This document shows positions 3 to 10,166 of a DNA stretch of 43,166 nt, one piece after another; within the stretch, counting starts at the first letter, position 1; each line of letters opens with the position of its first letter. The stretch is from contig NZ_JAATOW010000040.1 of the NCBI RefSeq assembly GCF_011806405.1, forward strand, positions 1 through 43,166, given 5' to 3'. The translations under genes were made by a program, and so were the position numbers. The notes under the pieces were generated by a model, which saw only the letters and a list, made by a program, of their open reading frames with translations, did not search any database and had not been told where the DNA came from. The DNA comes from Pseudooceanicola sp. HF7 (lineage in GTDB: Bacteria; Pseudomonadota; Alphaproteobacteria; Rhodobacterales; Rhodobacteraceae).

Positions 3-77
3 TGGAGCGGGCGAAGAGATTCGAACTCTCGACCCTTACCTTGGCAAGGTAATGCTCTACCCCTGAGCTACGCCCGC
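3..77 (-). tRNA. tRNA-Gly (anticodon GCC)
   Basis: Read on the minus strand this is a complete 75-nt tRNA cloverleaf. The acceptor arm GCGGGCG (plus 71-77) pairs with CGCCCGC near the 3' end. The D arm contains GCTCAGGGGTAGAGC, the anticodon stem TTACC/GGTAA encloses the loop TTGCCAA with anticodon GCC, and the T arm contains the canonical GTTCGAATC. The terminal CCA is encoded in the DNA (plus 3-5 reads TGG), preceded by discriminator base U. It should decode GGC and GGU. I am sure of the identity; the exact 5' end is inferred from the acceptor pairing. Confidence 0.97.
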
Positions 78-5800: not shown

Positions 5801-6306
5801 CGTCCGCCGCCGCCCCAGCTGGCCTTGAGCATCAGCGGATAGCCGATTTCCTCGGCCTCCTTGGCGATGGCGTCGAAATCTTCGCCCAGGACCTCGGTCG
5901 CGGGAATCACCGGCACGCCGGCTTCGATCGCAACCTTCCGGGCGCTGGCCTTGTCACCAAGGGCGCGCATGGTGGCCGCTTTCGGTCCGATGAAGGTGAT
6001 GCCCGCCGCGTCACAGGCATCGACGAATTCGGGGTTCTCCGACAACAGGCCGTAGCCGGGGTGGATCGCATCCGCGCCGGACATCTTCGTCACCCGGATG
6101 ATTTCCGGAATGCTCAGGTAGGCAGCCACGGGCCCAAGGCCTTCGCCGATCTTGTAGGCTTCGTCCGCCTTGAAGCGGTGCAGGCCCAGCTTGTCCTCCT
6201 CGGCGTAGACGGCGACGGTCTTTTTCCCCATTTCATTGGCGGCGCGCATGATGCGGATGGCAATCTCGCCTCGGTTCGCGATGAGGATCTTTTGGAATTC
6301 GGACAT
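2860..6306 (-). CDS. pyc: Pyruvate carboxylase
   Basis: The 1148-residue enzyme carboxylates pyruvate to oxaloacetate using ATP, bicarbonate and biotin, replenishing the TCA cycle. Domains in order: biotin carboxylase (about 1-460, opening 'KILIANRGEIAIRI', glycine-rich ATP-grasp loop 'KASWGGGGRGM', 'FIEVNPRVQVEHTVTEE'); carboxyltransferase from about 530 ('DTTMRDGHQSLLATR', metal-binding 'HFHTHDTSG'); and the C-terminal biotinyl domain with the biotinylated lysine at about residue 1113 in 'EAMKMETG'. Single-chain length and domain order match type I (alpha) pyruvate carboxylase rather than acetyl- or propionyl-CoA carboxylase. It is monocistronic, with an intrinsic terminator just downstream and no adjacent regulator. 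Confidence 0.98.
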   Translation of the reverse strand: MSEFQKILIANRGEIAIRIMRAANEMGKKTVAVYAEEDKLGLHRFKADEAYKIGEGLGPVAAYLSIPEIIRVTKMSGADAIHPGYGLLSENPEFVDACDAAGITFIGPKAATMRALGDKASARKVAIEAGVPVIPATEVLGEDFDAIAKEAEEIGYPLMLKASWGGGGRGMRPINGPEELKEKVLEGRREAEAAFGNGEGYLEKMITRARHVEVQILGDQQGTIYHLFERDCSVQRRNQKVVERAPAPYLSEAQREEICELGKKICQHVNYECAGTVEFLMDMDTGSFYFIEVNPRVQVEHTVTEEVTGIDIVQAQIMIAEGKSLAEATGKASQYDVRLTGHALQTRITTEDPQNNFIPDYGRITAYRTATGMGIRLDGGTAYGGGVITRYYDSLLVKVTAKAQTPEKAIARMDRALREFRIRGVSTNIAFVQNLLKHPTFLSNQYSTKFIDTTPELFDFKMAQDRGTKVLTYIADITVNGHPETKGRATLPEGFKPPKPPAQLAEEGPAGTKTLLDEKGPKAVADWMLEQKQLLITDTTMRDGHQSLLATRMRSIDMIRAAPVYSTNLPQLFSLECWGGATFDVAFRFLQEDPWQRLRDIRAACPNIMTQMLLRGSNGVGYTNYPDNAVQSFVKQAALTGMDVFRVFDSLNWVENMRVAMDAVVETGKICEGTVCYTGDILNPDRAKYDIKYYVAMAKDLEAAGAHILGLKDMAGLLKPSAARVLIKALKEEISIPIHFHTHDTSGIAGATILAAAEMGVDAADAAMDALSGNTSQPTLGSIVEALRHTDRDTGLDIEQIRQMSDYWETVRSQYVAFESGMQAPASEVYLHEMPGGQFTNLKAQARSMGLEERWHEVAHTYAQVNQMFGDIVKVTPSSKVVGDMALMMVSQGLTREEVEDPKRDISFPDSVIDMMRGNLGQPPGGFPKALVNKVLKGEKPNTERPGKHLPPIDLEATRKEASDALDGMEIDDEDLNSYIMYPKVFTDYATRHAIYGPVRALPTKTFFYGMDEGEQISVEIDPGKTLEIRLQALGETREDGDVRVFFELNGQPRVIRVPDRSITGSSAARPKADPTNPNHLAAPMPGVVASIGVQAGQEVKEGDLLLTIEAMKMETGMHADRAGTIKAVHVTPAAQIDAKDLLIEYED

Positions 6307-6693: not shown

Positions 6694-9114
<2,421 letters not shown>

Positions 9115-9272: not shown

Positions 9273-9319
9273 AAAACAAAAAAACCGCGGTGCCAGGGAG
9301 GAGGAGAGGCACCGCGGTT
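9273..9319 (-). terminator. Terminal cuckoo hairpin acting as intrinsic terminator
   Basis: The last hairpin of the array has a perfect 12-bp stem (9283-9294 with 9308-9319) and, on the minus strand, is followed at once by TTTTTTTGTTTT. It therefore ends the DUF1127-cuckoo transcript while still presenting the CCUCCUCCC loop. Confidence 0.9.
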
Positions 9320-9357
9320 CATTTCACGATCACCCAGGGAGGAGGAGAGGGTGACCG
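9283..9357 (-). ncRNA. Cuckoo (CcsR-like) small RNA, fifth unit
   Basis: The unit consists of a weak hairpin (TCACCC/GGGTGA arms, 9330-9335 and 9349-9354) followed by the 12-bp terminator hairpin (9283-9319). Both loops are the standard 13-nt sequence. As the last unit it would have a terminator-defined 3' end rather than a processed one. Confidence 0.82.
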
Positions 9358-9372
9358 ATCTGAGGCCAGTGT

Positions 9373-9443
9373 CCGGCAGGGCCAGGGAGGAGGAGAGGCC
9401 CTGCCGGTCTTGGCATCACCGCTCAGGGAGGAGGAGAGAGCGG
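9373..9443 (-). ncRNA. Cuckoo (CcsR-like) small RNA, fourth unit
   Basis: A weak 6-bp hairpin (CCGCTC 9419-9424 / GAGCGG 9438-9443) precedes a strong 11-bp hairpin (CCGGCAGGGCC 9373-9383 / 9397-9407). Both loops match the consensus. The unit and its flanks are nearly identical to the second unit at 9579-9649, apart from one compensated base pair in the strong stem and one loop base. Confidence 0.83.
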
Positions 9444-9491
9444 CGAATATATGGGAGTGGGGTCCTGATGGACCGAACTCCGGGAATAGGC

Positions 9492-9559
9492 CCGGTGGTG
9501 CCAGGGAGGAGGAGAGGCACCACCGGAAAACACGACCGCTCAGGGAGGAGGAGAGAGCG
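9492..9559 (-). ncRNA. Cuckoo (CcsR-like) small RNA, third unit
   Basis: A weak 5-bp hairpin (CGCTC 9537-9541 / GAGCG 9555-9559) precedes a strong 11-bp hairpin (CCGGTGGTGCC 9492-9502 / 9516-9526). Loops are standard. The weak stem is the shortest of the array. A U-rich stretch (TTTT on the minus strand) separates the two hairpins. Confidence 0.82.
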
Positions 9560-9578
9560 ACCGATCTTTTGCCAGTGT

Positions 9579-9649
9579 CCGACAGGGCCAAGGAGGAGGA
9601 GAGGCCCTGTCGGTCTTGGCATCACCGCTCAGGGAGGAGGAGAGAGCGG
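9579..9649 (-). ncRNA. Cuckoo (CcsR-like) small RNA, second unit
   Basis: A weak 6-bp hairpin (CCGCTC 9625-9630 / GAGCGG 9644-9649) precedes a strong 11-bp hairpin (CCGACAGGGCC 9579-9589 / 9603-9613). The strong loop carries one change, giving RNA UCUCCUCCUCCUU, which extends the match to the 16S anti-Shine-Dalgarno core CCUCCU. The unit is a diverged duplicate of the fourth unit. Confidence 0.82.
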
Positions 9650-9689
9650 CGAATTCTTTGCGAAGCGTGACCCTGCTTCGGGGATAGGT

Positions 9690-9763
9690 GCGACGATGCC
9701 AGGGAGGAGGAGAGGCATCGTCGCTAGTCTCAGTGGCCCTGGGAGGAGGAGCGGGCCGACTGA
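9690..9763 (-). ncRNA. Cuckoo (CcsR-like) small RNA, first unit
   Basis: The first unit begins 12 nt after the DUF1127 stop codon. Its first hairpin is the most divergent of the array: GGCCC/GGGCC plus TCAGT/ACTGA with a single-base bulge, and the loop TGGGAGGAGGAGC. The second is a perfect 11-bp stem (GCGACGATGCC 9690-9700 / 9714-9724) with the standard loop. Confidence 0.8.
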
Positions 9764-9775
9764 TCTCTTTGTTTC

Positions 9776-9997
9776 TTACGCCGCGTTGCGGTAGGCTTCC
9801 TGGTGTGCAACGTGGCGGATCTCGCCACGGCTCAGGCCCAGGTCGCGCAGTTCGCGGTTGCTCAGGTTCTGCAGTTCTTCCAGGCAGTTGCGGTACACGC
9901 GGTAGCGTGCGACGCGGAAAGCCAGGTTGGAAACGAAGCGCGCGAACGGGTTGTTCTGGTGGGCCACTTGGCCGTGAAGTTCGGTTGCCATCGTCAT
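9776..9997 (-). CDS. ccaF1: DUF1127 small protein, CcaF1-like, host gene of the cuckoo RNAs
   Basis: The 73-residue basic protein has the DUF1127 core at about residues 35-64 ('YRNCLEELQNLSNRELRDLGLSRGEI'). In Rhodobacter sphaeroides the homologue in the same position (CcaF1) is an RNA-binding protein that promotes maturation of the CcsR RNAs encoded in its own 3' UTR. Here the same layout is seen: the stop codon lies 12 nt before the first hairpin and there is no promoter-sized gap. I start at 9997 because AAGG lies 8 nt upstream; a second ATG at 9991 gives 71 residues and is also possible. Many GC-rich leader bases precede the gene. The function is inferred from family and context. Confidence 0.92.
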   Translation of the reverse strand: MTMATELHGQVAHQNNPFARFVSNLAFRVARYRVYRNCLEELQNLSNRELRDLGLSRGEIRHVAHQEAYRNAA

Positions 9998-10100: not shown

Positions 10101-10128
10101 AATTTAGCCAATTGCTGCGTTTGCACAA
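10101..10128 (-). promoter_or_regulatory. Candidate promoter of the DUF1127-cuckoo transcript
   Basis: On the minus strand TTGTGC (plus 10123-10128) and TAAATT (plus 10101-10106) are separated by 16 nt, resembling a sigma-70 promoter, with a leader of about 97 nt to the start codon. Rhodobacter counterparts are driven by stress sigma factors (RpoHI/RpoHII); I do not see an unambiguous heat-shock promoter here. Confidence 0.35.
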
Positions 10129-10149
10129 CGGACGGTTCAGCAACGCCGC

Positions 10150-10166
10150 TATGCAGAAAGTGCATA
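10150..10166. promoter_or_regulatory. Perfect palindrome TATGCA-N5-TGCATA
   Basis: A 17-bp perfect dyad (arms TATGCA/TGCATA, spacer GAAAG) lies in the shared upstream region of the DUF1127 gene and mrp, 22 bp upstream of the candidate -35 box of the former. Size and symmetry suit a dimeric repressor; the regulator is unknown. Confidence 0.4.

Follow-up and report, generated by a model that had tools for sequence, protein, structure and literature searches.

A DUF1127 gene with five two-hairpin CcsR-type RNA units in Pseudooceanicola sp. HF7, and a promoter box pointing to a possible LsrB/VtlR-class regulator

What do ten hairpins with nearly the same loop do behind a short DUF1127 gene, and which regulator might switch them on? 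The question is raised by the minus strand of the window, the whole 43,166-nucleotide stretch of Pseudooceanicola sp. HF7 DNA analysed here. We suggest that the locus is likely to be a CcsR-type operon, in which the DUF1127 gene is followed by five two-hairpin RNAs that would pair with GGAGGAG sites, and which would be activated by a LysR regulator (LTTR) of the LsrB/VtlR class. The array is an added member of a known system; what appears to be new is the promoter box, which points, as far as sequence can tell, to this class of regulator. The gene and the array comprise the following features, where the two folding energies of each unit are those of its first and second hairpin.

9776..9997, minus strand: DUF1127 gene, 73 amino acids, CcaF1-like by position (PF06568)
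9690..9763, minus strand: unit 1, H1 (bulged) and H2; folding energies -16.2/-21.9 kcal/mol; CcsR1 52.0 bits, cut-off 65.3
9579..9652, minus strand: unit 2, H3 and H4; folding energies -15.5/-24.2 kcal/mol; CcsR1 34.8 bits
9491..9563, minus strand: unit 3, H5 and H6; folding energies -10.5/-24.6 kcal/mol; CcsR1 34.8 bits
9454..9481, minus strand: small hairpin that lacks the loop motif, in the linker of units 3 and 4 (fold of 9780-9271)
9373..9446, minus strand: unit 4, H7 and H8, near copy of unit 2 (0.92 against unit 2); folding energies -15.5/-26.3 kcal/mol; CcsR1 41.8 bits
9282..9357, minus strand: unit 5, H9 and H10; folding energies -14.6/-25.5 kcal/mol; CcsR1 48.8 bits
9278..9284, minus strand: run of seven T with which H10 ends, probably the tail of an intrinsic terminator (from sequence)

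The earlier note on this DNA described ten hairpins with 13-nt loops behind a DUF1127 gene on the minus strand, and this is borne out. Ten CTCCTCCTCC cores, one per 13-nt loop, lie at 9752-9295 with spacings of 39, 70, 41, 48, 39, 78, 41, 48 and 41, and the 73-aa frame matches PF06568 (DUF1127) with 49.1 bits (cut-off 23.3, E 4.5e-13). Four more DUF1127 matches are found in the genome, at C69:65668, C5:75166, C15:46818 and C37:141897. Eight of the ten loops are exactly UCUCCUCCUCCCU / TCTCCTCCTCCCT; that of H1 is GCTCCTCCTCCCA and that of H4 is TCTCCTCCTCCTT, where one U stands in place of C at the end of the loop. The plus strand of the window gave no match to CTCCTCCC/T. Genome-wide the 12-mer CTCCTCCTCCCT has ten copies (reversed control 1), eight of them in the array, one on contig C23 and one on contig C74. 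The C23 copy was considered as a second array and rejected, as by its reading frame it sits within an ABC-transporter permease gene. The hairpins form five pairs, weak then strong, and the folding energy alternates in 5/5. Hence the weak/strong order proposed earlier stands, and the 5-6 bp then ascribed to the weak stems does not: in units 2-5 these stems have 9 contiguous bp including at least one G-U pair, and a bulge occurs in H1 only. H10 probably doubles as the terminator stem of the operon, since of the ten array hairpins it alone is followed by seven T; a terminator scan limited to loops of 3-8 nt did not list H10 with its 13-nt loop. The extent given earlier, 9273..9997, holds for the array and the gene, and its start must be moved, as candidate promoter elements lie further upstream at 10101-10166. 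A tRNA gene is located at the window edge (6-77, minus strand).

How did the array reach this size? Unit-against-unit scores are highest for units 2 and 4 (0.92) and reach 0.71 for units 3 and 5. In the congener G171 three units lie behind a DUF1127 frame, with spacings of 40, 73, 42, 50 and 42, and by eye the same-looking helicase gene is found downstream of the array there and here. The simplest account is that a block of a linker and two units was duplicated, which would have turned three units into five. The stems of units 2 and 4 are thus not independent because of block duplication. The earlier view of constant loops on freely varying stems is therefore kept for the loops and given up for the independence of the stems. 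We suggest that the array illustrates how a known stress-RNA system may grow via duplication of a two-unit block.

To which family does the locus belong? The Rfam model CcsR1 (RF02791) aligns full length to 5/5 units under permissive settings (E 1.3e-11 to 1.6e-6), and the scores of all units (52.0, 34.8, 34.8, 41.8 and 48.8 bits) stay below the gathering score of 65.3. The array is hence filed as a CIN1-type locus and not as a RF02791 match. In the text available from PMC10253847, the ccaF1-CcsR1-4 operon of Rhodobacter sphaeroides has the same gene-then-array order and this association is labelled CIN1, and section 2.7 of PMC3927594 describes the CCUCCUCCC loop family. In agreement with this, a short DUF1127 gene on the same strand lies directly upstream of the array here, and the two-hairpin units carry CCUCCUCCC loops on variable stems. 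The sole Rfam RNA match in the region at the default threshold is ar14 (RF02344), with 61.2 bits against a gathering score of 58.8, at 9280-9413; two further ar14 matches (55.3 and 47.3 bits) fall below that score. The best one comprises H8-H10 and straddles two CcsR units, therefore it does not demonstrate a three-hairpin RNA. In the permissive search ar7 (33.3 bits, cut-off 60) and anti-hemB (20.8 bits, cut-off 49.5) are weaker than CcsR1. The assignment to the CcsR/cuckoo layout, for which the earlier note named a covariance search as the check, is thus supported: CcsR1 fits, though under the curated cut-off, ar14 passes its own once, and DUF1127-then-array is common in relatives. We consider the locus to be a CcsR-type (CIN1/cuckoo) operon of an already known layout, as its sequence features support.

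The strict two-loop pattern is present in 88/199 genomes of the window's family. With one genome per GTDB species at least 117 stretches carry the array pattern; most of the 80 titled stretches listed among them bear names that we take to be those of Rhodobacterales, and the same 80 include three from Devosia, two Rhizobiales bins and one Euryarchaeota-labelled record. The last (L061) holds a weak hairpin cluster with stems of 5-6 and without DUF1127, and is either a mislabelled bin or chance. Identical arrays link the family genomes G039 and G119 with the named loci L124 (Antarcticimicrobium) and L114 (Rhodobacterales). Among 151 hairpin clusters four are repeats of others, which leaves 147 distinct ones. 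DUF1127 lies directly upstream in 110/147, and away from locus ends the DUF1127-then-array order is found in 93/119 distinct clusters. Two-hairpin clusters without a DUF1127 match number 22 distinct; isolated two-hairpin units of this kind are seen in G197 (several contigs; seven pattern matches spread over six of them), L018, L096 and L111. The latter, from Cereibacter, the genus now holding R. sphaeroides, was dropped as a promoter test since it is such an isolated unit. The viral contig L167 reads like a coding-stretch repeat and gave no hairpin cluster, thus it was rejected as an array. Two IMG/VR viral contigs carry one two-hairpin unit each with the same loops, L164 at 6049-6096 (minus strand) near a CI-like repressor gene and L165 at 6832-6878 (minus strand) near a phage-type DNA primase gene; we know of no phage-borne anti-Shine-Dalgarno RNAs.

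Of the distinct DUF1127-linked arrays 25/110 have at least ten hairpins and 15/110 have more than ten, so ten hairpins are ordinary. The claim that this array is larger than that of R. sphaeroides is right in that it has more than four units, and its size is not exceptional. The largest array counted has 21 hairpins at a locus that is possibly cut; in L020 (G146:C1, about 334948-336076) at least 21 hairpins repeat in blocks of ~140 nt. In 352/405 close pairs of relatives the 3' hairpin has the higher stability, and across wide gaps the next hairpin is more stable in 42/303 only, therefore the two-hairpin unit is a general rule. Flank pairing was compared for 807 distinct loops chosen by the motif alone. 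Between positions 1 and 12 the paired fraction goes from 0.83 to 0.44, and with shuffled 3' flanks from 0.71 to 0.37. The real value exceeds the shuffled one at each of the 12 positions (position 1, 0.83 and 0.71; position 8, 0.66 and 0.47), and each of them shows all six standard pair types. With related rows counted at full weight, the excess over shuffled flanks is moderate.

Which messages could such loops reach? A duplex of the loop with two GGAGGAG model sites has -16.2/-17.9 kcal/mol, and the 16S tail, in the sequence that we presume for it, has -12.8/-12.2 kcal/mol with the same sites. The GGAGGUGA site, a model sequence like the others, reverses the order (loop -11.8, 16S tail -18.0 kcal/mol). 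As the loop beats the 16S tail at GGAGGAG only, the RNAs are expected to win over ribosomes chiefly at GGAGGAG-type sites, and the earlier idea that they act on ribosome sites in bulk is toned down to this likelier preference. Sites of the form GGAGGAG-N2-10-ATG occur 137 times in the genome and the reversed pattern 15 times, an excess that is in part due to ordinary Shine-Dalgarno usage. From these 137 sites 30 loci were fetched, and a Pfam scan of ten proteins behind them gave two TctC receptors, cytochrome b, alcohol dehydrogenase and others, with no match for three of the ten. This set is too mixed, and we refrain from naming a GGAGGAG regulon.

Upstream of the DUF1127 gene the following elements are found.

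10150..10166, minus strand: T-N11-A palindrome TATGCA-N5-TGCATA, LysR-type box, left part (from sequence)
10141..10155, minus strand: VtlR/LsrB-like box TGCATAGCGGCGTTG, three mismatches to the Brucella motif as reverse complement
10123..10128, minus strand: TTGTGC, candidate -35, anchor in 99/104 upstream regions
10101..10106, minus strand: TAAATT, candidate -10, spacer 16, at a conserved AT-rich position

These elements recur among relatives. Upstream regions were taken from 112 array-linked DUF1127 genes, and the 104 with at least 250 nt upstream were kept (eight left out); 99 could be anchored on TTGTGC and five could not. The anchored regions read about ATGCA-n-TTnCTGCATrGCrGCATTG, followed by TTGTGC, by GCAGCA and by an AT-rich element. 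In 45/104 regions there is a perfect 6-5-6 inverted repeat (shuffled mean 7.35), mostly but not always with the sequence TATGCA-N5-TGCATA. The Brucella VtlR motif is CAATGCAGCCATGCA (PMC12595884, in the text available). With up to three mismatches its reverse complement is present in 94/104 upstream regions (92/102 distinct), against 12/1001 random pieces of the same loci and 1/1040 shuffles. TTGTGC follows 12-13 nt after the VtlR-like box in 91/94 box-bearing regions, and the remaining three lack TTGTGC up to 30 nt from the box. A sigma-70 consensus scan found no promoter at the operon, and the conserved TTGTGC and AT-rich element are described here independently of any sigma-specific model.

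Taken by itself, the pattern of box plus TTGTGC is found in 139/199 family genomes, mostly at one site (reversed pattern 3). Thirty such loci were fetched and 28 analysed, two that were not centred being left out; in 21/28 a DUF1127 ORF lies no more than 1.5 kb away, in 7/28 none does. Behind all 21 lies at least one CCTCC-loop hairpin, as called with a lax finder for which no control was run. By eye, the pattern is present in 79/88 array-positive genomes and missing from nine, and it is also present in 60/111 genomes negative for the strict array pattern, some of which carry arrays with other loops. In the Pseudooceanicola genome the looser box TGCATRGCNGCNTTG has one exact match, and 28 with at most one mismatch (reversed control 3). 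In Devosia, a box with 2-3 mismatches lies 84 nt ahead of the first loop in 5/5 clusters at three named loci, and there is no DUF1127 match there. When 300 random 400-nt pieces are drawn from the Devosia loci, such boxes also occur in 66, 58 and 34 of them; some of these pieces contain the real sites. Being so common by chance, the Devosia boxes were rejected as independent proof, and only their constant position is telling.

Which protein could read the box? Available parts of the literature tell that VtlR activates three DUF1127 genes and the sRNA AbcR2 in Brucella melitensis (PMC12595884), that an LsrB box of the T-N11-A kind precedes NfeR1 (PMC10746234), and that lsrB adjoins trxB in Rhizobiales (PMC11975290). 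Our references are the LysR genes beside trxB in three Devosia genomes, not studied LsrB/VtlR proteins themselves, and their best match in the Pseudooceanicola genome is C11:1251-2105 (frame 1188-2105; 237 bits, 42% identity; next 122.8 bits). In the return search the top match is the trxB-linked gene in 3/3 Devosia genomes (237-238 bits, next 148), and in a tree of 30 LTTRs, with several long branches elsewhere, eight family and three Devosia sequences form one clade (support 95/94). Thus the C11 gene is a reciprocal best match of the Devosia references and lies in a common clade with them. The helix-turn-helix (HTH) stretch SQSAVSRQ is identical in 23/23 LTTR rows. The redox cysteines of Agrobacterium LsrB are C144 and C273; the alignment gave no column with a cysteine in both the Devosia LsrB and the family rows. 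A cysteine at residue 190 (L201; C11:1188-2105) is found in 18/20 family rows and is absent from the Devosia rows. The trxB gene of the genome, on C37, has no LysR neighbour and is flanked, by ORF reading, by a Lrp-type gene and a sulfate adenylyltransferase gene, hence lsrB beside trxB was rejected for this genome. A relative of the C11 gene is present in 197/199 family genomes (E<=1e-60; missed in G083 and G141), among them 59/60 of those negative for the promoter pattern. The LTTR is a core gene, therefore its co-occurrence with the promoter says little. The tree suggests a sister group of LsrB in the window's family, despite the statement, made from a few species in the accessible text of PMC11975290, that LsrB is unique to Rhizobiales.

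We propose the following course of transcription, processing, target pairing and activation. The LsrB/VtlR-class regulator at the predicted box 10141-10166 probably switches transcription on. The box adjoins the candidate core promoter, and in R. sphaeroides the ccaF1-CcsR promoter is credited to RpoHI/RpoHII, with no LysR regulator named in the available text of PMC10253847 and PMC8307010. A single transcript would start ~100 nt before the DUF1127 gene, pass through the five units and end at the tenth hairpin. The DUF1127 gene would encode a CcaF1-like protein which, by analogy with R. sphaeroides, may act with RNase E in cleaving five short RNAs out of the 3' UTR. Each RNA would expose two CUCCUCC loops for pairing with GGAGGAG-type Shine-Dalgarno sites, thus blocking translation of a set of mRNAs, and the stronger second hairpin of each unit probably shields the 3' end.

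Other roles of the hairpins have to be weighed against this course. Their main task could be the titration of a protein, whether the DUF1127 protein, Hfq or RNase E, with feedback on processing; mRNA pairing would then be secondary. Many similar modules would suit such a sponge, and extra CcaF1 disturbs CcsR maturation and shortens the half-life of CcsR1 in R. sphaeroides (PMC8307010, in the part available). However, the most constant feature is the loop, which is complementary to Shine-Dalgarno sites, and the related NfeR1 silences ntrB via its anti-Shine-Dalgarno loops, the mutant in all three loops failing to do so (PMC10746234, in the text available); we hold titration as the main role to be improbable. 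Nor do we expect that the locus makes no regulatory RNA and that its hairpins only stabilise the 3' UTR or act as successive weak terminators of the DUF1127 mRNA. H10 with its seven T is terminator-like and the DUF1127 gene precedes most clusters away from locus ends (93/119), but the T run follows the final hairpin only, the stems vary while the loop, itself the search motif, is common to all ten here, and the 22 distinct two-hairpin clusters mentioned above have no DUF1127 match. This makes such a purely structural role very improbable.

The box may also have another reader, being either part of an RpoHI/RpoHII promoter or the site of a different LysR regulator. This is favoured by the uninformative co-occurrence of a core gene and by the restriction of LsrB to Rhizobiales stated in PMC11975290. 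It is opposed by the T-N11-A palindrome and the VtlR-like 15-mer lying upstream of the candidate -35 at a nearly fixed distance, by the lead of the best LsrB relative in the genome (237 against 122.8 bits) and by the identical SQSAVSRQ, and on balance another reader seems rather unlikely. We infer that an LsrB/VtlR-class regulator drives the DUF1127-CcsR operon via the predicted box. Going further, we lean slightly towards the view that throughout Alphaproteobacteria one ancestral regulator of this class governs DUF1127 proteins as well as anti-Shine-Dalgarno sRNAs, and that in the window's family it is near-universal with the DUF1127-CcsR operon as its main, perhaps only strong, site. If true, one regulator joins the CcsR RNAs of Rhodobacter, NfeR1/AbcR of rhizobia and VtlR with DUF1127 in Brucella. 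In the open-licence literature no paper came up that brings together CcsR, LysR and sphaeroides, or Rhodobacteraceae, small RNA and anti-Shine-Dalgarno; the accessible parts of PMC7486931, PMC11975290 and PMC12501420 draw no link between a LysR-class regulator and a CcsR operon.

How does the operon compare with known systems? The cuckoo RNA family of Reinkensmeier and Giegerich (2015) reportedly consists of adjacent hairpins with a common loop motif and variable stems; unlike in that description, ten hairpins stand here in a single run. The closest likeness is to ccaF1-CcsR1-4 of R. sphaeroides, which, in the available text of PMC10253847 and PMC3927594, has the DUF1127 gene, the two-hairpin CCUCCUCCC-loop units and a terminal Rho-independent terminator. 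It differs from the present operon in having four units instead of five, and the latter is further marked by the block duplication and by CcsR1 scores under the gathering score. The ar14/NfeR1 family of Rhizobiales (RF02344) shares the CCUCCUCCC loops, with one match above the gathering score, and NfeR1 has an upstream LsrB T-N11-A box (PMC10746234, in the text available), as is predicted for the operon here. However, NfeR1 is a single three-hairpin RNA with its own promoter, whereas the RNAs here come after the DUF1127 gene. The C11 regulator resembles the LsrB/VtlR regulators of Rhizobiales in its reciprocal best match, common clade and identical SQSAVSRQ, and differs from them in not lying beside trxB and in sharing no cysteine column with the Devosia rows.
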